Assembly: GCA_946409515.1 (NCBI GenBank)
Contig: CAMJWS010000001.1
Location: forward strand, 189,557 to 253,556
Source: an uncultured Caryophanales bacterium
GTDB lineage: Bacteria > Bacillota_I > Bacilli_A > RFN20 > CAG-826
Length of the DNA: 64,000 nucleotides
Direction of reading: 5' to 3'
The notes beneath the pieces were generated by a model, which saw only the letters and a list, made by a program, of their open reading frames with translations, made no database searches and was not told the DNA's origin. A program made the translations under genes and the position numbers. Below, one piece after another: positions 46,015 to 57,965 of the stretch; positions within the stretch are counted from its first letter, which is position 1, and every line of letters starts with the position of its first letter.

Positions 46015-46408
46015 TGGTGGAGCCGAGGAGAATTGAACTCCTGTCCCAAGAAGGCTCTTCAATAACGTCTACAGTTTAGACGATATTAAGATTTAACACG
46101 CTTTCGTATATCGACTCACTAGGACGTGCGAGATAAACGGAATTTCGGTGTTGGTAACTTATCGACTCCGCACACCTATCCTTTTGGTATGACACCCTAC
46201 CCAAGCGTGAAAGGATAAAACCTTGGGGGATGCTCTGCCCGGCGCTATGCGTCGGACCCTATGTCGGGAGCTAAATTAAGCTAAGCAGAGTTGTTGAGCT
46301 CTAGGAGCTCTCATATAACTGTTGTCAGTTATTTTTGTTTTGATGATAACGTCATCACTCGACTGCAGTTAGAGCCTAACCATTCCTGGTCGAAACCAAT
46401 ACGACCCC
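46015..46408 (-). ncRNA. ssrA: Transfer-messenger RNA
   Basis: The 5' end GGGGTCGTATTGGTTTCGAC and 3' end GGGACAGGAGTTCAATTCTC...TCGGCTCCACCA form the tRNA-like domain, including a G-U pair at position 3-70 as in alanine tRNA. The length of 394 nt is typical. The tag frame reads from GAC after TAACT to TAA and encodes DNSYMRAPRAQQLCLA, ending in the usual LA. The resume codon is inferred. Several pseudoknot-like stems lie between the tag and the 3' half. It rescues stalled ribosomes with SmpB. Confidence 0.95.
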
Positions 46409-46452: not shown

Positions 46453-46483
46453 ACAAAAACCAGGTACGCTCAGCGCACCTGGT
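46453..46483 (-). terminator. Terminator of the GH3 operon
   Basis: ACCAGGT / ACCTGGT stem with an inner CGC/GCG pairing, followed by TTTTTG on the minus strand. Confidence 0.85.
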
Positions 46484-46511: not shown

Positions 46512-47996
46512 CTATTCGGCAGCTTCGACAACTTCGAATTCCACCATAGTTTCATAATAATATTCATTCTTATCATGATCGCCAAGTGTGTTACCATCGA
46601 ATTTTTCAACATTCCATCTAGCTCTAGCAACTTGAACGCCAGCTTTGCTCATATCTGGATTTTTGCTCCATTCTGCATCTTCAGCGGCATCCTTAGCTCT
46701 ATAAGCCCATTCAACTTTACGTTGTGAGTCGAAGATAGAACCTACTGCTAAGTTATTTCTAACTTGTAAGCATGTCCATTCACTCATTTCGAACATACCG
46801 TTGACTGTGTATTGTGGCATTTTATTGCTACCAGTATCGACAAACATACCGATTAATGGAGTATATTTGACACCGTTAGCTTTAATATAACGACCACCTT
46901 GTTGGGTGTTATAGTTGGCGTGGACGTCAACGAACCATTCATAATATGAACTATCACCAGTAATCTTATTACCGACCATGTTGTAGTCGTTACTTGTTGA
47001 GATTAAGACTAAGCAATCAGCATCGGCTTCATCGACGTTATACCAGTAACCCTTCAAATCATCGATCTTTTTGCTGCCATCGTAGTTAACACCGTTATAT
47101 AAGCCGTCTTCCCAAAGAGTAATGTTGGAGGTCTTTGGTGTATAGTCACCTTGCCAGCCTTCAGCGGTTAAGCCTTCAAAGACATAGATCTTATGGATTG
47201 GGTTACCATCTGCATCTTGTCTCTCTTGGTTAGTAGCGTAATCTGGAATTGCACTATTAACGGCACTCTTTTGTGCGGTTGAATATGGATTGTCCGTTTC
47301 AGAAAGTTTGAATTCAGCAGGATTGAAATCATATTCAATCTTTTTAGATTCATAATCTTTAAGACGTAATGCCACTCTTTCGGCAAGAGTTGTTTGTTTA
47401 TTGGCAGCATTACCTTTTCTAATGTTTTCGGCAGTGACACCATAAACACTTAAGATAACGGCTAATGCGGCAACAGCCACACCACCACCAACAGCGACTT
47501 TGACAAGTCTTTGGCCAGCAATCTTTTCTTTCTTTTGTTGATCTTCATCTTCTTGCTTAATCATGCCGATGAATAAGACGGCAATAGCGGCAGCAATAAT
47601 CACGATTGTGATAATGAGCCAAGATAAGCAGAGTGGGAGAGAACCACCTTGATAGTGAATTTTATTGATTTCGTCAGCCACTAAGTTAGGAATGCAGTAG
47701 ATTTGTTTCATCAAAGAGATACACATTGGGACAATCGCTAATAAGTGAACCCATAAGTACTCTGGAAGTAACAAAGCAACTAATTCAAGAATAGCAGCTA
47801 AGAAGAGGAATAAACCAATAACTTCTGGCACATGACCGTAAGCGTTAGACGCCATACCTTGGTGCATGTAACCTGGTTCGAAATGTTTATATGTTGCAAA
47901 GAAGAATATACCCACGAAGATAGCGAGTAATACGTTAGCGATGACTAGATAGTAGCCAACTTTCTTATTGGCGAAGAAATTTTTGCTCTTTTCCAT
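46512..47996 (-). CDS. Membrane protein with outer domain, GH3 partner
   Basis: 494 residues. Five hydrophobic helices (about 14-36, 57-78, 80-100, 122-145 and 165-188) are followed by roughly 300 residues rich in Tyr, Trp, Asn and Gly. That part looks beta-rich and extracellular: KIYVFEGLTAEGWQGDYTPKTSNITLWEDGLYNG. No catalytic motif is recognised. It follows the GH3 gene by five bases, so the two are one operon, and it may bind sugars or anchor the enzyme complex (inference). Confidence 0.7.
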   Translation of the reverse strand: MEKSKNFFANKKVGYYLVIANVLLAIFVGIFFFATYKHFEPGYMHQGMASNAYGHVPEVIGLFLFLAAILELVALLLPEYLWVHLLAIVPMCISLMKQIYCIPNLVADEINKIHYQGGSLPLCLSWLIITIVIIAAAIAVLFIGMIKQEDEDQQKKEKIAGQRLVKVAVGGGVAVAALAVILSVYGVTAENIRKGNAANKQTTLAERVALRLKDYESKKIEYDFNPAEFKLSETDNPYSTAQKSAVNSAIPDYATNQERQDADGNPIHKIYVFEGLTAEGWQGDYTPKTSNITLWEDGLYNGVNYDGSKKIDDLKGYWYNVDEADADCLVLISTSNDYNMVGNKITGDSSYYEWFVDVHANYNTQQGGRYIKANGVKYTPLIGMFVDTGSNKMPQYTVNGMFEMSEWTCLQVRNNLAVGSIFDSQRKVEWAYRAKDAAEDAEWSKNPDMSKAGVQVARARWNVEKFDGNTLGDHDKNEYYYETMVEFEVVEAAE

Positions 47997-48001
47997 TGTT
48001 A

Positions 48002-51000
48002 CTATTCTCCTTTCGCATCGTTTTCAACAGCAACTTCATTGCCGTTTGGTGTTTTTTTAATAAATTCATAAATAACGAATAACGCGACCGCGCCGGCGGT
48101 TAAAACGCCAGCACCGATGTCAAGGCCATAGAGGACACCTTTCCACCAAGCATTCTTTGTTCTGCCCATATCGGCTTCGTTTTGTTCAGCGGTCATATCA
48201 CCCATAAATGATTGCAATAAAGCATACATGATGTACTTGTTGGATAATTGCATATCTTTGAGGAGGCCACCATCTTTTTGACCAGTAACGTAAGTAACAA
48301 GTTGGCCACCACGTTGACCGTCAAGACAGAAGACGTTTGTACCAGCTTCAACCATTAATGGACCATTAGCGTATGCACTATCGTTACTACCACTTTGAGC
48401 ATCGTCGATGATGAGACCTTTATAATTCCATTCACCTCTCATGACGTTGATCATTAAGTTTTTATGAACAGCAGCATATGTACAACCAATTCTGTTATAG
48501 GATGTCATAACACCCATACCACCACCATAAGCTAAAGCGCCTTCGAATGGTTTTAAGTAGATTTCACGAATTGATTGTTCGTTAGCAAATGTGTTGATAC
48601 CATGACGACCGGATTCTTGGTTATTCAAGAAGCAGTGTTTGATATTCATAACTAAGCCTTTTCTTAAAGCTTCGCTAACGACGTTAGCAGCAATGTAGTA
48701 GTTCATGATACCGTCTTCAGACATATATTCAGAAGCACGGGAACCATATGGTGTTCTTAAGATGTTTGTACCTGGAGCGTTAACAGAAGCAGCGCCGCAG
48801 AATAAAGCTTCTTCACCATAGAAAGCACCAAATTTCTTTTGGATAACGTGGTCCCAAGAAGCACTGAATACTGGACCGGTAGCAAAACCTGTTGCCCATC
48901 TCTTATCACCATAGTTGAATTGAGCTAATAAGCCTTCTGGACCTTCAGCGATAGAGTTTGTTGGTTTTGAAATCTTAGCAACGGAGGCAAGACCACGAGC
49001 GTCAGACATAGAAACAGCTAATTCTTGAACTGTCATTTGAGAAATGAAGTCTTTCCATAATTTTTCTGTGTATTCGGCATCTCTTTCAACACCATTCTTG
49101 TCTTTATAAGGACCTTCAAATGGCACACCAGCCATATCAGCGAAAGTGATACGTTTATTTTTGCCTTCATCATCTGTTAATTTGACGTTGAAGTTAACAC
49201 CATCACCATCAGTGTAGTATTCTTGATCTTTAACTTGGTGTCTACCGTTGTTATTAATTTCGTTTTGCATCGCTGTTGTAGCGGTGAAAGAACTTAATGT
49301 TGTTGGGAATGTATCCCAATCTTGTCTTGTTAAATATGTGATTTTATTAGCATCACTGGCCCAGTAGTTGAGGTCAGCATTATCAAATTGGTTTTCAACT
49401 TCAACATCTTTGTTATAGATAGAATATCTATATGATGTGAAATCATCCTCAAGACTGAACTTGTAAGTAGTATTTGCAGGAGCGGCATAAGCGGCACCAT
49501 TGTGGTCGACTAAGCCACTGACGCCTTGAGAACCAAGAATGTTGTTCAAAGCTTCATGCGCACCATTACCAATAGCGAAGTAATAATCGCCACCTTCAAT
49601 GAAGTAGGCTTTATTTTGACGACCGTTATCGGTTCTGTAGTCATATGAACAGAGGAAGTATTTTTTAACAGGAATCTTAACAGTTTCTGTTTTGCCTTTT
49701 TCAACAAATACTTTTTCATATCCGCCTAAGCAAATAGCAGATTTTTCTAATAAATTATCTTTATCCCATTGGGTATATGGTTGTTTGAAGTACACTTGGA
49801 CAGAGGATCTTGCGTCCATGTTACCAGTGTTCTTAACGGAAACAGATACCTCGTATTGATCTTTTTCTGCATCAAAAGAAACGTTTGTAATCTTTTGTTC
49901 GAAAGAAGAATAGGACATGCCCCAACCAAATGGATAGCCCATTTCGGCATCATATTGCCATTTTTCTGTACCGGCATAGACACCTTTGTTATTATCAGCG
50001 TTACCTTGGCCTAAGACGCAGTCTTCATATCTGGTTTCATAATATTTGTAACCAACATAGATGCCTTCTTTATAGGCAACAAAGTTGCTACCGTTAGAAT
50101 TACTTGGTGCATTAGATAAAGACTTTGTACCAAAGTTTTGGTAAGCCGCAGAGCTCTTTGAATACTTAGCAAATGTTTCAGGAGCGTGGCCAGATGGAGA
50201 AAGTGGTTTAGCATCAGCGCCAATGCCATCTTTACCCATTAAAACGTGGACAACACCTTCTAAGGAGTAGTAGCCAGGAACACCGAACCAAACAACAGCA
50301 TCAACGCCATAATCTTCGTTGTCGGCAAATTCCATACCCATTGCGGATGGGGAGTTTAATAAGACGATGACTTTCTTAAATACACCAGCATCCTTTTGAG
50401 CTTTGACCATTTCTAAAAGGGCTTTTTCGTTTGCTTGAAGATCTAAAATACCATCGGATGGGTCAGTATCTTCAGTACCAAAACGGGTGAATGTAATAAT
50501 AGCAGCGTCACCATATTGTCCGAATGTTTGTTTTACTTCATCGGTGTAATTTGAAACAGCAATTTCACTATTGCTTGTAACGCTTTGGTTACTACCACTC
50601 TTGTAGAGGTCCCATACTGTTTCATTGATGTTAAATTTGCATAATTTAAAAGCATCATTTAAGTGGACAACCAACTTTTCATTTGGCGCAGCGCCGCCGG
50701 CACCAGAACGGTGCATTAAGTGAGCACTGTTACGACCAAACAATGTAACGTTTCTTTCGCCTTCTGCTAATGGAAGGACATTGTTGTCATTTTTGAACAA
50801 AACAGCACCTTGTTCTTCTTCTTCAACGCAGAACTTATAGGAATCAGTGATCATTCTTCTGTAGCCAGTGTCGGTAAGACTACCATCGGCTTCAGCATAA
50901 TCAGATCTCTTTGAAGCGCCTAAGTTCGTACGGGAAAGTTTAAGAACGTCATTGATTAAGCCTTCGTTATCCATGGCGACTTGTGTACCAGCAATTAATG

Positions 51001-51058
51001 TTGTGGTAAGAAAAACACCAACCGCGGATAAACCTAACCAAAGTTTTGATTTTTTCAT
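48002..51058 (-). CDS. Membrane-anchored GH3 glycosidase, domain-swapped order
   Basis: 1018 residues. A hydrophobic N-terminal helix (about 5-25) and a C-terminal helix (about 975-998) would anchor it at both ends. In between, the GH3 parts come in swapped order. First is the alpha/beta-sandwich half (GAVLFKNDNNVLPLAEG, VDAVVWFGVPGYYSLEGV), then a fibronectin-III-like domain (VSVSVKNTGNMDARSSVQVYF). The TIM-barrel half follows, with KHCFLNNQESGRHGINTF and the nucleophile Asp in GLIIDDAQSG near residue 915. Ruminococcus albus and Butyrivibrio beta-glucosidases share this order. Substrate is probably a beta-linked sugar. SD AAAGGAAA. Confidence 0.88.
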   Translation of the reverse strand: MKKSKLWLGLSAVGVFLTTTLIAGTQVAMDNEGLINDVLKLSRTNLGASKRSDYAEADGSLTDTGYRRMITDSYKFCVEEEEQGAVLFKNDNNVLPLAEGERNVTLFGRNSAHLMHRSGAGGAAPNEKLVVHLNDAFKLCKFNINETVWDLYKSGSNQSVTSNSEIAVSNYTDEVKQTFGQYGDAAIITFTRFGTEDTDPSDGILDLQANEKALLEMVKAQKDAGVFKKVIVLLNSPSAMGMEFADNEDYGVDAVVWFGVPGYYSLEGVVHVLMGKDGIGADAKPLSPSGHAPETFAKYSKSSAAYQNFGTKSLSNAPSNSNGSNFVAYKEGIYVGYKYYETRYEDCVLGQGNADNNKGVYAGTEKWQYDAEMGYPFGWGMSYSSFEQKITNVSFDAEKDQYEVSVSVKNTGNMDARSSVQVYFKQPYTQWDKDNLLEKSAICLGGYEKVFVEKGKTETVKIPVKKYFLCSYDYRTDNGRQNKAYFIEGGDYYFAIGNGAHEALNNILGSQGVSGLVDHNGAAYAAPANTTYKFSLEDDFTSYRYSIYNKDVEVENQFDNADLNYWASDANKITYLTRQDWDTFPTTLSSFTATTAMQNEINNNGRHQVKDQEYYTDGDGVNFNVKLTDDEGKNKRITFADMAGVPFEGPYKDKNGVERDAEYTEKLWKDFISQMTVQELAVSMSDARGLASVAKISKPTNSIAEGPEGLLAQFNYGDKRWATGFATGPVFSASWDHVIQKKFGAFYGEEALFCGAASVNAPGTNILRTPYGSRASEYMSEDGIMNYYIAANVVSEALRKGLVMNIKHCFLNNQESGRHGINTFANEQSIREIYLKPFEGALAYGGGMGVMTSYNRIGCTYAAVHKNLMINVMRGEWNYKGLIIDDAQSGSNDSAYANGPLMVEAGTNVFCLDGQRGGQLVTYVTGQKDGGLLKDMQLSNKYIMYALLQSFMGDMTAEQNEADMGRTKNAWWKGVLYGLDIGAGVLTAGAVALFVIYEFIKKTPNGNEVAVENDAKGE

Positions 51059-51285: not shown

Positions 51286-52257
51286 TTATTCAGCGTGGCT
51301 TTTTTGATATTCTTCTAAAGCCCCGATGGATTCACTTAAGGAGTATATTGTTTCAAATTCTCTCGTGATTTGGCTAATCTCTTTTTGCTCCATGCCAAGT
51401 CTCTTACGATATTCCTTAGGAGTATAACCGAAATGTTTAATGAACATTCTGTTCATATATTTAGGATCAGAGAAGCCTGATTCATAAGAGATTTCTAATA
51501 AGGTCTTTTCTTTATTAGGCATTAAACGGATACATTGTTCCATTCTCTTAATGTTCACATAGTTTTGGAAAGTAACACCGAATAAAGATGTGAATAAATG
51601 AGAGAAGTGAGTTGGAGAAAGATTCTCTTGCTCAGCGAGATCTTGCAAACGGATTTGTGTTTCAAAGTTTGCATCAATATAAGAGATAATACGCTCCACG
51701 CGTAAGTTCTTTTGTTTTAAGTTGGTCTTTTGGGCTTCAGAGATGATTTCGTGTGGCACTTGTTTATAGCAAGACACCAAAACTTTAGCGACATTAGAAA
51801 GAACATTTAATTGATATAAAGGTTCTTCCATGAAGTAAATCTTCGCGGATTGAACGAGTAAGTTAATCATTGAATTAGCTTCAGCGTCACTTAAATAATC
51901 TCTTAGATTACAGGAATTGAAGATTGTGGTTCTAATCTGTGGGAAATATTCTCTTAAACAGTGATTAGAGATTTGCACGAATAAGAATAATGGGACATCA
52001 TCTGTATCCTCAACATCAAGGGTGTATAAAGGATCTCTCATATAAGAGTGAACTTCACCAGAGTTGATTAAGAAGATATCACCTTCTTTTATTGAGTAAG
52101 ATTTGTTCTTAATCTTAGCGATACCACTACCTTTGAGAACGATAAAGATCTCAAATTCGTTATGAATATGTTCTTTTCTAAATTGAATGCGGTTGACTAA
52201 AAATTTAACATGCTTAAGCTTTTCGTAACGAATCAGTTCGACATCTAATTGTTTCAT
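51286..52257 (-). CDS. AraC-family regulator with cupin sensor
   Basis: 323 residues from ATG 52257; a TTG at 52263 has better SD spacing (GGAGATCATAA) and may be the real start. The N-terminal cupin domain (FRKEHIHNEFEIFIVLKGSGIAKIKN, EGDIFLINSGEVHSY) senses a sugar-type ligand. The C-terminal pair of helix-turn-helices (ETQIRLQDLAEQENLSPTHFSHLFTSLFGVTFQNYVNIKRM and ISYESGFSDPKYMNRMFIKHFGYTPKEYRK) binds DNA. It lies just upstream of the GH3 operon and probably controls it. Confidence 0.9.
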   Translation of the reverse strand: MKQLDVELIRYEKLKHVKFLVNRIQFRKEHIHNEFEIFIVLKGSGIAKIKNKSYSIKEGDIFLINSGEVHSYMRDPLYTLDVEDTDDVPLFLFVQISNHCLREYFPQIRTTIFNSCNLRDYLSDAEANSMINLLVQSAKIYFMEEPLYQLNVLSNVAKVLVSCYKQVPHEIISEAQKTNLKQKNLRVERIISYIDANFETQIRLQDLAEQENLSPTHFSHLFTSLFGVTFQNYVNIKRMEQCIRLMPNKEKTLLEISYESGFSDPKYMNRMFIKHFGYTPKEYRKRLGMEQKEISQITREFETIYSLSESIGALEEYQKSHAE

Positions 52258-52555
52258 GGTCAATTATGATCTCCTATCTAAGCAGTTTCCTAAACCGCAA
52301 TTATCTTATCATTTAGCATCTTTGACTACAATACTATTATGCTATTTTACAACCATTTCTTTGCGCATATTTAAAAATACACTTCGTGTATGAAAAATAG
52401 TCTTTTATGCGCTTTCGTTTTTAGATGGACACTCTCAAAATGATAGTAAAATATCTAGTCGCAACCTTCTCCGTTTTTACGATGTTTTCTATCTTTTTTA
52501 GCAAAGAAAAAGCGATGCTCTTTGATGAACACCGCTTATTTTTGCTTAATATTGA
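52258..52555. promoter_or_regulatory. AraC-gene upstream region with TGCGCATA half-sites
   Basis: This gap holds TGCGCATA at 52362-52369 and, in the other orientation, TATGCGCT at 52406-52413. A third copy (TATGCGCA, 51078-51085) sits before the GH3 gene. The 52511-52536 hairpin (AGCGATG/CACCGCT), with a T-run on the minus strand, ends the region's other gene. Nothing else is seen in the gap. Confidence 0.4.
52508..52540 (-). terminator. Terminator of the first phosphatase gene
   Basis: AGCGGTG / CATCGCT stem (one G-U) followed by TTTTTCTTTGC on the minus strand. Confidence 0.7.
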
Positions 52556-53731
52556 TTAGGCAGCTCTATGATAGCCTTCAACGAATTTTTCTCTAATTGT
52601 TTCGAGTGTATCAGCTTCGATACCGATGTCTTCGTTTAAGTGCTTATATGTCTTATCAGCCCATGTTTCGCCTTCTAAGGCTTCAGTTTTAGCATTCCAT
52701 TTAGCGATTTCGGATTTGCCGCTGCTATCATCAACTGCTAAGACAGCTCTTTCACCAGCGAATCTTGTCATAACATAGTCTCTAGCGCAGTCTTCTTTGC
52801 TAACGCCTAATAAACCCAATAAGAACCAAGAGACGATACCTGTACGGTCAGCACCATGTGTGCAGTGTAAGGCGATTGGCTTTTCATCGGCAACAGCGAT
52901 AGCTTCGAAAATCTTCTTATATGTGGCAGCGATGTTATGATCTTTGCTGTGGTCACCTTCCCAACGGCCATCTTCAGTACTGGAGGCAACAGAAGCTGGC
53001 ATAATTTCAACATCATAATCATCAGATTTTAATGGAGAAGTTGGTGAAACTTGGTTGCTGTCTCTCATATCAATATCAACTTTGATGCCTAATTCTCTGA
53101 TTGCCGCTTTGCCTGCTTCGGTAATATTGACTTTTGATTTGTCATATTGGTCATCGAATTGAGCGCAACGATAGTACATGCCTTGTTTAGTGACACCGTT
53201 TGGCACTAATGATGATTTCCAACCACCACTATCACGGAAGTTAATAACACCATCAATGTGTAAATAACGTGGAGCAACATCGTTAACTTTGAACTTATAG
53301 ATTTTAGCAGCGGCTAAAGCTTCTTCACTAACTGCGGCTCTGTAGTAGTATTCTTGACCTAATTCGGAATTGTAGAAGTTGTAAGCTTTTGTATCAGCTT
53401 CCACTACTTTAGCGTCTTTGAATTCAACATCCTTTGCGATTTGAACAACATACTTTTCAGCATCTTCAACTTCATCAAATTTTAATTCAATTGGGTTTGG
53501 TTGGGATTGGTCGTTGTGATAAGAACTATCTTCAGCGTTGACCTTTGGAACATATGTTTTGATGCTTGTCCAATCTGGGTCTTCTAAATATTGCTTCATT
53601 AAATCTGTATGAGTTTCTTTAACACCGAGATCTTCGACTTCAGGACCTTTGGATGTTGATGGCTTGCTATTGTTACATCCAGTAGCCACTAAAGAACCGA
53701 GCAATAAAAATAATAATGCTTGTTTTTTCAT
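52556..53731 (-). CDS. Lipoprotein tyrosine phosphatase
   Basis: 391 residues. The signal ends in lipobox VATGC (Cys near 19). Residues about 60-160 look like a fibronectin-III-type domain (PIELKFDEVEDAEKYVVQIAKD, YYYRAAVS). The rest is a Y_phosphatase3-type catalytic domain with FRDSGGWKSS and the P-loop HCTHGADRTG near residue 300, whose Cys and Arg are intact. It acts outside the cell on phosphotyrosine or another phosphate ester; LipA of Listeria is a comparable lipoprotein phosphatase. A paralog lies directly upstream. Confidence 0.87.
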   Translation of the reverse strand: MKKQALLFLLLGSLVATGCNNSKPSTSKGPEVEDLGVKETHTDLMKQYLEDPDWTSIKTYVPKVNAEDSSYHNDQSQPNPIELKFDEVEDAEKYVVQIAKDVEFKDAKVVEADTKAYNFYNSELGQEYYYRAAVSEEALAAAKIYKFKVNDVAPRYLHIDGVINFRDSGGWKSSLVPNGVTKQGMYYRCAQFDDQYDKSKVNITEAGKAAIRELGIKVDIDMRDSNQVSPTSPLKSDDYDVEIMPASVASSTEDGRWEGDHSKDHNIAATYKKIFEAIAVADEKPIALHCTHGADRTGIVSWFLLGLLGVSKEDCARDYVMTRFAGERAVLAVDDSSGKSEIAKWNAKTEALEGETWADKTYKHLNEDIGIEADTLETIREKFVEGYHRAA

Positions 53732-53878: not shown

Positions 53879-55183
53879 TTAATTGCCCGCTGGTCTTGTA
53901 TAACCTGGAACGAATTTTTCTCTAATTGTTTCAAGAGTATCCGCACTAATACCAAAGTCATCTTTGAGGTGTTTGTATGTCTTATCCGCAAATGTGGCAC
54001 CTGCTAAGGCATTTGTTTTTGTAAACCATTTAGCGATTTCGCTACTACTTCCTGTAGGAAGAACCGCTCTTTCACCAGCAAATCTTGTCATGACATAGTC
54101 TCTGCCGATATCATCTTCACTAGCGCCTAATAAGCCCATCAAGAAGAAAGAGACAATGCCTGTTCTATCCGCACCATGTGTACAGTGTAAAGCGATTGGT
54201 TTTTCATCGGCTTGGGCGATAGTTTCAAAGATTGTTCTATAAGTTGACGCAATACCATTCGAACCTTCCCAGCGGTAATTCTCTGTGCCTGAAGAAACTG
54301 ATGCTTTTACCAATTCAAGTTTCCAGTCTTGTGAAGAAGCTGGTGAATTAGTTGGAACTTGGCCACTATCTCTCATATCAATATCGACTTTGATACCTAA
54401 CTCTTTGATAGCTGCTCTACCTTTATCAGTGATGTTGACTTTTGATTTATTGTCTTTGTCATCGAATTGAGCACATCTATAATATAAGCCTTGTTTAATA
54501 ACACCATTTGGAACGAGACTAGACTTCCAGCCACCTTGGTCACGGAAGTTAATAACACCGTCAATGTGAATGAAACGTGGAGCGGCATCATTTACTTTAA
54601 ATTTGTAAACCTTAGCTTGCGCTAAAGCTTCTTGACTAACTGCGGCTCTATAATAGTATTCTTGACCTAATTCGGAATTGTAGAAGTTATAGGTTTTAGT
54701 TGTAGATTCCACTAGTTTTGCATCTATGAATTGAGCGTTTTTAGCAATTTGAACATAATACTTGCTGGCGGCAGCAACTTCATTAAACTTTAATTCAACT
54801 GGGTTTGGTTGAGATTGGTCGTTATGATAGTTTCTATCTTCAGCGTTAACCTTTGGAACATATGTTTTAATAGAAGTCCAATCTGGGTCTTCTAAGTATT
54901 GTTTCATCAAAGCTGTGTGAGTTTCCTTAATACCAAGGTCTTCAATACCAGTTTCAGAGCCACTAGATGATTGGTTAGATTGGCTTGACTGTGATGATTG
55001 ACTAGACTGTTGAGATTGACTTGTTAGAGTAGATTCTTTTGATGGTTCAGAACTTTGGCTACTTGATTGTTCCTCACTACTGCTTGGTTCTGATCTGTTT
55101 GATTCAGAAGAAGTGACAGGATTATTACAGGCAGATAAAAGCAATGAACTAAGTACCAAAACAAACAGCGCTTGTTTTTTCAT
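53879..55183 (-). CDS. Lipoprotein tyrosine phosphatase, paralog with Ser/Gln linker
   Basis: 434 residues from ATG 55183 (SD AAGAGG). Lipobox LSAC lies near residue 19, then a long low-complexity linker of Ser, Gln and Glu (about 25-80). After that it follows its neighbour at 52556-53731 domain by domain, including HCTHGADRTG. Many stretches are identical between the two, so they arose by tandem duplication. The linker would extend this copy further from the membrane. Confidence 0.87.
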   Translation of the reverse strand: MKKQALFVLVLSSLLLSACNNPVTSSESNRSEPSSSEEQSSSQSSEPSKESTLTSQSQQSSQSSQSSQSNQSSSGSETGIEDLGIKETHTALMKQYLEDPDWTSIKTYVPKVNAEDRNYHNDQSQPNPVELKFNEVAAASKYYVQIAKNAQFIDAKLVESTTKTYNFYNSELGQEYYYRAAVSQEALAQAKVYKFKVNDAAPRFIHIDGVINFRDQGGWKSSLVPNGVIKQGLYYRCAQFDDKDNKSKVNITDKGRAAIKELGIKVDIDMRDSGQVPTNSPASSQDWKLELVKASVSSGTENYRWEGSNGIASTYRTIFETIAQADEKPIALHCTHGADRTGIVSFFLMGLLGASEDDIGRDYVMTRFAGERAVLPTGSSSEIAKWFTKTNALAGATFADKTYKHLKDDFGISADTLETIREKFVPGYTRPAGN

Positions 55184-55276
55184 AGTATGCACCTCTTATA
55201 TGTTTATATTGTTCCATTATTTTACATGTTTAAATATGATTACTATTCTTTTTTGATTAGTTTATTGTGCTGGCAA

Positions 55277-55329: not shown

Positions 55330-56079
55330 TTATTTGGCTTCTGTGACAACAAATACAAAGTCTTTAATTAACATATTTTGTGTTTGAAGTCTGGAATATT
55401 TCACTTCGTTAACACCTTGTTTTAAAGTGACTGCACCATATGGAGCATAACCATCTTTAGAGAGGTGATCACTTGGGCTGCTTAAACTTGTGTCGATTTG
55501 ATCTTCACCATAATAATCTCTATATGTTTTATTCTTTTGTCCTGCGCTATCAATTTCAGTAGCGTTAACTTCAATCTTCGCACTTGGTGAACCATCACGA
55601 TAGAAGCCGGCGTTTCTATTGCCATCAGTTGACCAGCCATCCATACAACCAAAGAGATATAAGACACCAGTATAGGCTTTTTCTACGTCAATCTTGAAGG
55701 AGAAGCTTTGACCATCACTTGATAATTTAGTGTAACCATCTGGTGTACCAGATTTTCTTGTAGAACCAGAGGCATAGGTAACGACAGATTGATTAACTGT
55801 TAATCGAATAGCACCATCGTTATCATCACAGACTGCTTTCTTATAAGCGGCTGTACCAGCTTCAGTATTTGCTGCAACATCTGTGTCAGTGGTAAATTTG
55901 TGACCATCTGGATACGCTGGTGGAGTATAGATGCTTGTTGTTGATTTAGATGTGGATGAGCGGCGTGATGTTGAAGTAGCAGCTGGTTTTGTGCTAGTAG
56001 AAGTCTTAGCGCCATTACAAGCAGTAACACCCAACGCAAGCATAACACCTAAAATTGTTAAGAATTTTGCTTTTTTCAT
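55330..56079 (-). CDS. Lipoprotein with possible carbohydrate-binding domain
   Basis: 249 residues from ATG 56079 (AAAAGG ribosome site). Lipobox VTAC near residue 20 is followed by a Ser/Thr/Lys linker (KTSTSTKPAATSTSRRSSTSK). The C-terminal domain (about 100-245) looks like a CBM6/35-type beta sandwich: SFSFKIDVEKAYTGVLYLFG ... AVTLKQGVNEVKYSRLQ. This is a pattern call and no ligand is known. It is in the same surface cluster as the phosphatases and GH3. Confidence 0.65.
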   Translation of the reverse strand: MKKAKFLTILGVMLALGVTACNGAKTSTSTKPAATSTSRRSSTSKSTTSIYTPPAYPDGHKFTTDTDVAANTEAGTAAYKKAVCDDNDGAIRLTVNQSVVTYASGSTRKSGTPDGYTKLSSDGQSFSFKIDVEKAYTGVLYLFGCMDGWSTDGNRNAGFYRDGSPSAKIEVNATEIDSAGQKNKTYRDYYGEDQIDTSLSSPSDHLSKDGYAPYGAVTLKQGVNEVKYSRLQTQNMLIKDFVFVVTEAK

Positions 56080-56090
56080 AAACCTTTTAT

Positions 56091-56106
56091 GCAACTAATT
56101 AGTTGC
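56091..56106. promoter_or_regulatory. Perfect 16-bp palindrome before the lipoprotein
   Basis: GCAACTAATTAGTTGC is its own reverse complement and lies 12 bases upstream of the ATG at 56079. The rest of the gap to 56330 shows no gene, only AT-rich DNA and a possible TACAAT box. Confidence 0.45.
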
Positions 56107-56379: not shown

Positions 56380-57702
56380 TTACTTACCGAATAAGACATC
56401 GTTAACGATGGCTTCGAGCATTTCTTGACGGCCACTACCTGGAAGTTCTGGAGCACCCATCTTGCAAGCGTAATCGGATAATTCTTTTAAGCTTGTCTTA
56501 TTGTTTAAGATCTTTTGACCGATTTCTGTTTCACGGAAGGAAGAATATTTCTTTTCGATGAATTGATCAATACGGCCATCTTCGATGATTTGAGCAGCTT
56601 TGATTAAGCCTAAAGCGAATGTATCCATGCCTAAGATATAGGCTAAGAACATATCTTCCATTGTGTAGGATGGACGACGTGTTTTGGAATCAAAGTTGAA
56701 GCCACCTGTGAGACCACCATTCTTTAATACTTCGTACATACATTGTGTTGCACTGTAGACATCGAATGGGAATTCATCTGTATCCCAACCTAAGAGCATA
56801 TCGCCTTGGTTAGCATCGATAGAACCTAACATACCATTGATGGCGGAGATTCTTAAATCGTGTTGGAATGTATGACCCGCTAAAGTAGCGTGGTTAGCTT
56901 CGATGTTCATCTTGAAGTCTTTATCTAAGCCGTGGGCTCTTAAGAAGCCAATAGCTGTCGCGGCGTCGAAGTCATATTGGTGTTTCATTGGTTCTTTTGG
57001 TTTTGGTTCGATATAGAAATCGCCTTTGAAACCGATGGAACGGCCATATTCAACAGCCATCTTCATTAAACGAGCAATGTTTTCTTGTTCGAATTTAACG
57101 TCTGTATTGAGTAATGTTTCGTAACCTTCACGACCACCCCAGAAGACGTAACCTCTACCACCTAATTTAACGGTGATATCTAAGGCTTTCTTAACTTGAG
57201 CAGCGGCGAAAGCGAAGACATCCGCACTGTTTGTGGAACCCGCACCATTGCAGAAACGTGGGTTGCTGAACATATTGGCGGTGCCCCATAAACATTTGAT
57301 ATCTGTGCCTTTCATCTTTTCTAAGATGTAGTCACTGATTTCATCTAATTCTTTGTTTGTATCTTTGATATCTGCACATTCTGGAACTAAGTCAACATCA
57401 TGGAAGCAGAAATATTTGATACCGAGTTTTTTCATGAATTCGAAACCGGCATCGACTTTGGCCTTAGCGTGTTCCATTGTGCCAACTTTAGCACCGAAAC
57501 TCTTATCTGCTGGGCCGGCACCAAACATATCAACACCTGTTGCACCGAGATTGTGCCACCATGCCATAGCGAATGGGAGGTGTTCTTTCATTGGTTTGCC
57601 TAAAATGATTTGGTCTGGGTTGTAGTAATGGAAAGCAAAAGGATTCTTGCTTTCTTTTCCTTCAAATTTAATTTCAGGAATATTTGGAAAAATTTCTTTC
57701 AT
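56380..57702 (-). CDS. xylA: Xylose isomerase
   Basis: 440 residues from ATG 57702 (SD AGAGGTATACAT); the 23 extra codons upstream have no SD. This metal enzyme converts D-xylose to xylulose. Family landmarks are clear: FHDVDLVPE, the Trp-lined pocket (MAWWHNLG), [48 protein letters not shown] and [20 protein letters not shown]. All metal ligands I can check are present. No xylulokinase or xylose transporter gene is nearby. The intergenic region 57703-57965 is AT-rich, with a weak TTGTCA-N17-TATTTA promoter. Confidence 0.97.
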
Positions 57703-57965
57703 ATGTATACCTCTACGATATGATATTGACATATACGCAGTATAAATAAATTGACTTTCTTGCGCTGACAATAGTTATATTGTTATGTGGCGAAAATAGG
57801 CAAATAATATTTTATATTATTTAGGTATTATTTTTTATGTGATTAATTGTAGACAAAAATAAATAATATTATTTATAGGCAAAATTGTTTTGGAGCATTT
57901 TAGTCAAATTGTGTTTACTCTTTCAAACAATATTTGTAAAATAGTTTGACTGCGAGGTTAGCAAA

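Follow-up and report, generated by a model that had tools for sequence, protein, structure and literature searches.

The locus described here raises the question of why a GH3 glycoside hydrolase should be held in the membrane at both of its ends and encoded directly beside a membrane protein that matches no catalogued family. The window (the whole stretch of DNA analysed, 64,000 nucleotides) comes from an uncultured Caryophanales bacterium, probably a gut inhabitant, whose genome assembly comprises 1.32 Mb in 16 contigs. An initial annotation had described the two proteins as an enzyme with swapped halves flanked by membrane helices and a five-helix partner with a large outer domain, and had suggested that they form a surface glycan-degrading unit in place of a secreted enzyme and a transporter. 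The minus strand encodes, in this order, an AraC-family regulator, the GH3 enzyme and the partner. The locus contains the following features:

46459..46483, minus strand: strong intrinsic terminator 3' of the partner gene, closing the two-gene unit
46512..47996, minus strand: membrane partner of 494 aa, with a four-helix (4TM) module, a fifth helix and an outer domain (ORF, hydropathy, AlphaFold2)
48007..48013, minus strand: ribosome-binding site AAAGGAG of the partner, within the end of the GH3 gene
48002..51058, minus strand: GH3 glycoside hydrolase of 1018 aa, with permuted domain order and both ends anchored (ORF and Pfam)
51286..52263, minus strand: AraC-family regulator (Pfam and neighbourhood comparison)
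56380..57771, minus strand: xylose isomerase XylA, about 5 kb upstream of the pair (TIGR02630)

The two ORFs are separated by 5 nt, and the position of the partner's ribosome-binding site inside the GH3 gene, together with the strong terminator after the partner, indicates a two-gene unit (operon). Next to this terminator, on its downstream side, is a tmRNA gene (46015-46408, minus strand). Beside the regulator, two tandem lipoproteins with Y_phosphatase3 (tyrosine-phosphatase) domains are encoded (52556-53731 and 53879-55192, minus strand), which we read as extracellular phosphatases and which adjoin the pair in several other genomes of the genus too. A small lipoprotein without a Pfam match (55330-56094, minus strand) is found between the phosphatases and xylA, and larger lipoproteins are present near the GH3-partner pair in relatives.

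The enzyme belongs to the GH3 family, with scores of 80.2 bits for PF01915 and 49.6 bits for PF00933, both over the curated cut-off. The three Pfam domains detected, all exceeding the cut-off, occur in the order Glyco_hydro_3_C, Fn3-like, Glyco_hydro_3, and this sandwich - FnIII - barrel arrangement is the permuted, GlyA1-type order, which bears out the swapped halves. Hydropathy, computed for both proteins on their 98% identical counterparts in L051, likewise places a membrane helix at each end of the enzyme. From the N-terminus onwards, its parts are:

50984..51043, minus strand: N-terminal anchor helix, residues 6-25, with a conserved K-x-W-x-G-L start (hydropathy, orthologue alignment)
50048..50803, minus strand: GH3 C-type alpha/beta sandwich, residues 86-337, with the predicted acid/base Glu196 (Pfam)
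49565..49801, minus strand: FnIII-like domain, residues 420-498 (Pfam)
48311..48886, minus strand: GH3 N-type barrel, residues 725-916, with the predicted nucleophile Asp886 (Pfam)
48071..48127, minus strand: C-terminal anchor helix, residues 978-996, with WW just before it (hydropathy)

The best PDB match is 5wug, which is also permuted and aligns co-linearly, and the matches also include 5k6l, with the same domain order. The permuted subfamily is known from GlyA1, a beta-glucosidase/beta-xylosidase of ruminal origin in which Asp-709 is the nucleophile and Glu-143 the acid/base, and whose crystal structures are 5k6l-5k6o (PMC5104943); BrGH3A is a further described member, reported to be without a signal peptide (PMC11233000). 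GlyA1, BrGH3A and 5wug share their domain order and the places of the acid/base and nucleophile with the window enzyme, and the subfamily comes, like it, from gut and rumen bacteria, mostly Bacillota. However, the accessible portions of these two reports mention neither membrane anchors nor a partner for GlyA1 or BrGH3A, whereas the window enzyme is flanked by helices at both ends and has a dedicated membrane partner; GlyA1 instead has a C-terminal extra domain.

Among 14 orthologues, D886 and E196, which line up with catalytic positions in GH3 structures, are invariant, and R774, K807, H808, R818 and Y854 of the -1 subsite are also invariant. Given that these residues are kept, the enzyme should be active, as predicted from its sequence. 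The one departure is at the usually conserved -1 subsite aspartate (D532 in GlyA1), which is replaced by Glu705, itself invariant in the orthologues; with an otherwise intact active site, this replacement perhaps shifts the specificity. A GH3 98% identical to that of the window is present in L074.

The anchor helices do not resemble cleaved signals as far as this could be assessed. In the 14 orthologues, the N-terminal helix has a mean column identity of 69%, compared to 70% for the enzyme, and K3, K5, W7, G9 and L10 are invariant; an A-x-A motif after the helix is present in just 13 of 72 paired members. With conservation on a par with that of the enzyme and so few A-x-A motifs behind it, the helix is probably retained in the mature protein, which argues against cleaved signal peptides. 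In ordinary GH3 enzymes, the end of the barrel joins the start of the sandwich. The permutation opens this link, and both free ends should consequently lie close together, in which case both anchors could enter the membrane at one place.

The partner is less easily classified. The AlphaFold2 model (mean pLDDT 83.5) contains helices at residues 13-36, 58-76, 81-111, 120-143 and 163-197, followed by an all-beta region up to residue 490, and the hydropathy of the L051 pair gives five helices starting at about 17, 59, 85, 128 and 164. Five helices and an outer domain are therefore present as initially annotated, but the partner is better regarded as modular, with a lineage-specific fifth helix and outer domain joined to a widespread 4TM module of about 150 aa:

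47568..47960, minus strand: tetraspan-like 4TM module, residues 13-143, and the part that is widely conserved (AlphaFold2, profile search)
47406..47510, minus strand: fifth membrane helix, residues 163-197 (AlphaFold2)
46854..47201, minus strand: outer domain, small beta-barrel-like part, residues 266-381 (structure model, fold comparison)
46515..46853, minus strand: outer domain, Ig-like (Big-type) part, residues 382-494 (structure model, fold comparison)

As a stand-alone protein, the 4TM module is about 130-155 aa long. No Pfam or NCBIfam family covers the whole partner or the module: in searches with 25 4TM members, NCBIfam gave no match, and the best Pfam result was DUF6541 (E 0.006, one member, below the cut-off), while the Tetraspanin Pfam reached at best a weak E of 0.005, in 2 of 17 members. 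The sequence of the module has no match in the PDB, and no conserved charged residue lies inside its helices. The closest structural likeness is to the tetraspan auxiliary subunits TARP gamma, MS4A2/FceRI-beta and uroplakin, which are also small four-helix bundles beside a larger membrane protein with big outer domains; the helix arrangement is similar (Z 9-11, with an rmsd of 3.4-4.2 across some 125 residues), although helical bundles can reach such Z values, below 13, through a common arrangement. These subunits are eukaryotic and show no clear sequence relation to the module, and the resemblance is one of helical bundles only.

Modelled alone, the outer part of the partner (pLDDT 88) splits into the barrel-like and Ig-like parts. 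These resemble small lipoprotein barrels of the NlpE, fHbp and TbpB type and Big_3 domains, respectively, but VIA-align matched both parts weakly (best Z 5.4), and a weak Big_3 match was detected in 2 of 17 partner members. Foldseek returned nothing at E <= 0.001, and no match was obtained against PDB sequences. No sugar-binding family could be assigned, as the comparison with CBM families gave no Pfam, PDB-sequence or clear fold match. The outer domain is also borne by lipoproteins (L077, L081, L211), which places it outside the cell. Partners of about 690 aa occur in L053, L056 and L190, where an extra C-terminal region resembles that of the separate lipoprotein in L081. In a distant lineage, L113 (3167-4300, plus strand) encodes a 4TM module combined with a fifth helix and an outer domain resembling Big_2, perhaps an outer part that was added independently.

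A survey of related genomes, proposed as a check in the initial annotation, shows that the two genes belong together. They are adjacent and on the same strand in 13 of 15 other genomes of the genus, as well as in G025 and three genomes from another family; the remaining two genomes of the genus (G007 and G012) have a related GH3 and, after it, a partner of 140 aa that consists of the 4TM module only. This conservation argues that the adjacency is not due to chance. A search based on the GH3 alignment detected 4TM genes, mostly overlapping or within 20 nt, beside anchored permuted GH3s in Lachnospiraceae, Oscillospiraceae, Christensenellaceae, Bacilli and Coriobacteriia. A 4TM gene adjoins 72 of the 92 anchored permuted GH3s with readable flanks (68 downstream, four upstream), a count made in six frames, given that antisense ORFs overlie 4TM genes in GC-rich contigs. 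The reciprocal search, with a 4TM-only profile against 392 genomes of the phylum, gave 26 matches in 12 genomes, and 25 of these adjoin a GH3.

On a tree of the anchored permuted GH3s built without the anchor regions, one large clade has a 4TM gene beside each of its 61 informative members, and the pairing label requires three changes, compared to a mean of 18 when shuffled. The N-terminal anchor motif (W-x-G-L type) follows the same division, being present in 59 of 72 paired GH3s and in 1 of 20 unpaired ones (for the loose motif, Fisher p ranges from 3e-10 to 3e-3 with the clustering level). However, the tree offers just three independent contrasts, and shared ancestry could alone explain this association; the motif was therefore dropped as proof of contact between the two proteins. 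For the 20 anchored permuted GH3s with no 4TM gene alongside, some of them in the genome of the window itself, double anchoring evidently does not need the module. The own-genome examples are three paralogues at L195 (3974-15547), one of which adjoins a 355-aa lipoprotein.

Natural fusions and rearrangements provide a second line of evidence. In L188 (2984-4498, minus strand), the C-terminal anchor of a GH3, whose enzyme part is cut by the contig edge, and a 4TM module lie in one reading frame. In L077 (10599-14306, plus strand), directly downstream of a complete GH3-partner pair, a lipoprotein with a signal ending in LGVVGC combines the GH3 core with the partner's outer domain and has no anchor, 4TM module or fifth helix; it is likely to be a tandem duplication from which the membrane parts were deleted. 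Finally, L081, whose branch on the tree lies immediately outside the Bacilli group, encodes a GH3, a 4TM protein of 155 aa and, separately, a lipoprotein that bears the outer domain. The outer domain is thus found as a separate lipoprotein (L081), joined to the 4TM module via the fifth helix (Bacilli) or joined to the enzyme (L077), and the enzyme, the 4TM module and the outer domain can be regarded as making up one surface unit whose three parts recombine.

The neighbourhood offers some indication of the substrate. XylA scores 667 bits against TIGR02630 (cut-off 533). In several relatives, the pair is bordered by XylA, XylB and a GH43-like gene, with XylA closer than it is in the window. These xylose genes, together with the activity of GlyA1, suggest xylo-oligosaccharides as substrate, and the protein would be a surface enzyme of the beta-xylosidase/glucosidase type. 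The conserved block in relatives contains no sugar transporter gene, and the ABC genes neighbouring the pair in the window are of the ABC_sub_bind type. The genome carries GPH-type (MFS_2) sugar permeases (four matches over the cut-off), so that ordinary sugar uptake is available. In every related locus that extends far enough, an AraC regulator adjoins the pair. In L189, L191 and L193, GH3-4TM pairs lie beside an apparent LytTR-type response regulator and GHKL-type sensor kinase, a means of control that differs from the AraC type.

Taken as a whole, the pairing in either gene order, the fusions and the series on the tree count in favour of a cell-surface complex, and we consider it rather probable, judging from sequence, that the pair is an exo-glycosidase complex in which the GH3 is docked by a putative tetraspan auxiliary subunit. 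The permutation would leave both chain ends near one point, and the two anchor helices would meet the 4TM module in the membrane, forming a six-helix base in which the module may dock, orient or stabilise the enzyme. In the Bacilli lineage, the outer domain of the subunit would be held next to the enzyme, probably for contact with substrate or cell wall. Short xylo- or gluco-oligosaccharides would be cut at the surface, releasing xylose or glucose; xylose would enter via ordinary permeases and reach XylA, and the AraC neighbour probably controls the unit. A dedicated two-protein, membrane-held unit that degrades glycans at the surface, as initially proposed, is supported by the conserved adjacency, the fusions and the nearby xylose genes.

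Of the other functions that could be assigned to the 4TM module, a chaperone or assembly factor, which would insert the doubly anchored GH3 and be absent from the mature complex, is unlikely. Such a factor might well be small, always beside the GH3, devoid of enzymatic motifs and lost along with the anchors in L077, but the covalent fusion in L188 and the attachment of the outer domain in Bacilli point to a lasting association, and anchored paralogues occur without the module. Slightly less likely still is a sensor that reports enzyme occupancy across the membrane to a nearby regulator. The constant AraC neighbour and the LytTR/GHKL-like genes mentioned above would suit such a function; however, the module has short tails and no cytoplasmic domain, the type of regulator varies among lineages, and AraC proteins usually bind the sugar themselves.

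A small permease or channel, through which sugars released by the GH3 would pass straight into the cell (vectorial hydrolysis and import), would be consistent with an integral membrane protein that is paired with an exo-glycosidase throughout one clade, in a block without a sugar transporter gene. We nonetheless regard it as very unlikely, and the proposal that the unit replaces a transporter is not supported: the module is small (about 135 aa), its helices are free of conserved charge, it has no likeness to any transporter family in Pfam or NCBIfam, conventional GPH-type permeases are present in the genome, and the module is lost without replacement where the enzyme becomes a lipoprotein (L077). 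In that protein, a lipid anchor stands in for the anchors and the 4TM module together, which suggests that the module serves anchoring or docking rather than transport. A minimal form of enzyme-coupled entry, in which the unit hydrolyses at the membrane and passes the monosaccharide through the bundle of 4TM and anchor helices, is marginally more improbable. The same low probability applies to the two proteins being mere operon neighbours that share regulation and do not touch; the pairing in both gene orders across two phyla and the fusions speak against this.

The swapped domain order of GH3 is already known, and permuted GH3s are common in gut Bacillota. What appears to be new is the widespread, uncatalogued 4TM companion of the anchored permuted GH3s, along with its outer-domain variant. 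A literature search limited to open papers found no description of a membrane-anchored GH3 with a partner, in agreement with the initial annotation, although a prior description is possible. The locus resembles Gram-positive polysaccharide utilisation loci in its grouping of regulator, glycosidase and sugar isomerase or kinase genes; those loci, however, have a dedicated sugar transporter, and none is present in the conserved block here.

The authors who first described the permuted subfamily proposed a new substrate range as the reason for the permutation. The double anchor and the clade-wide 4TM partner suggest a structural reason: with both ends at one point, the enzyme could be clamped to the membrane. 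The 4TM proteins appear to constitute an uncatalogued membrane family in which nearly every member marks a surface glycosidase, and the GH3-4TM pairing, unnamed in the databases searched, recurs in many gut bacteria as a short, testable gene pair.
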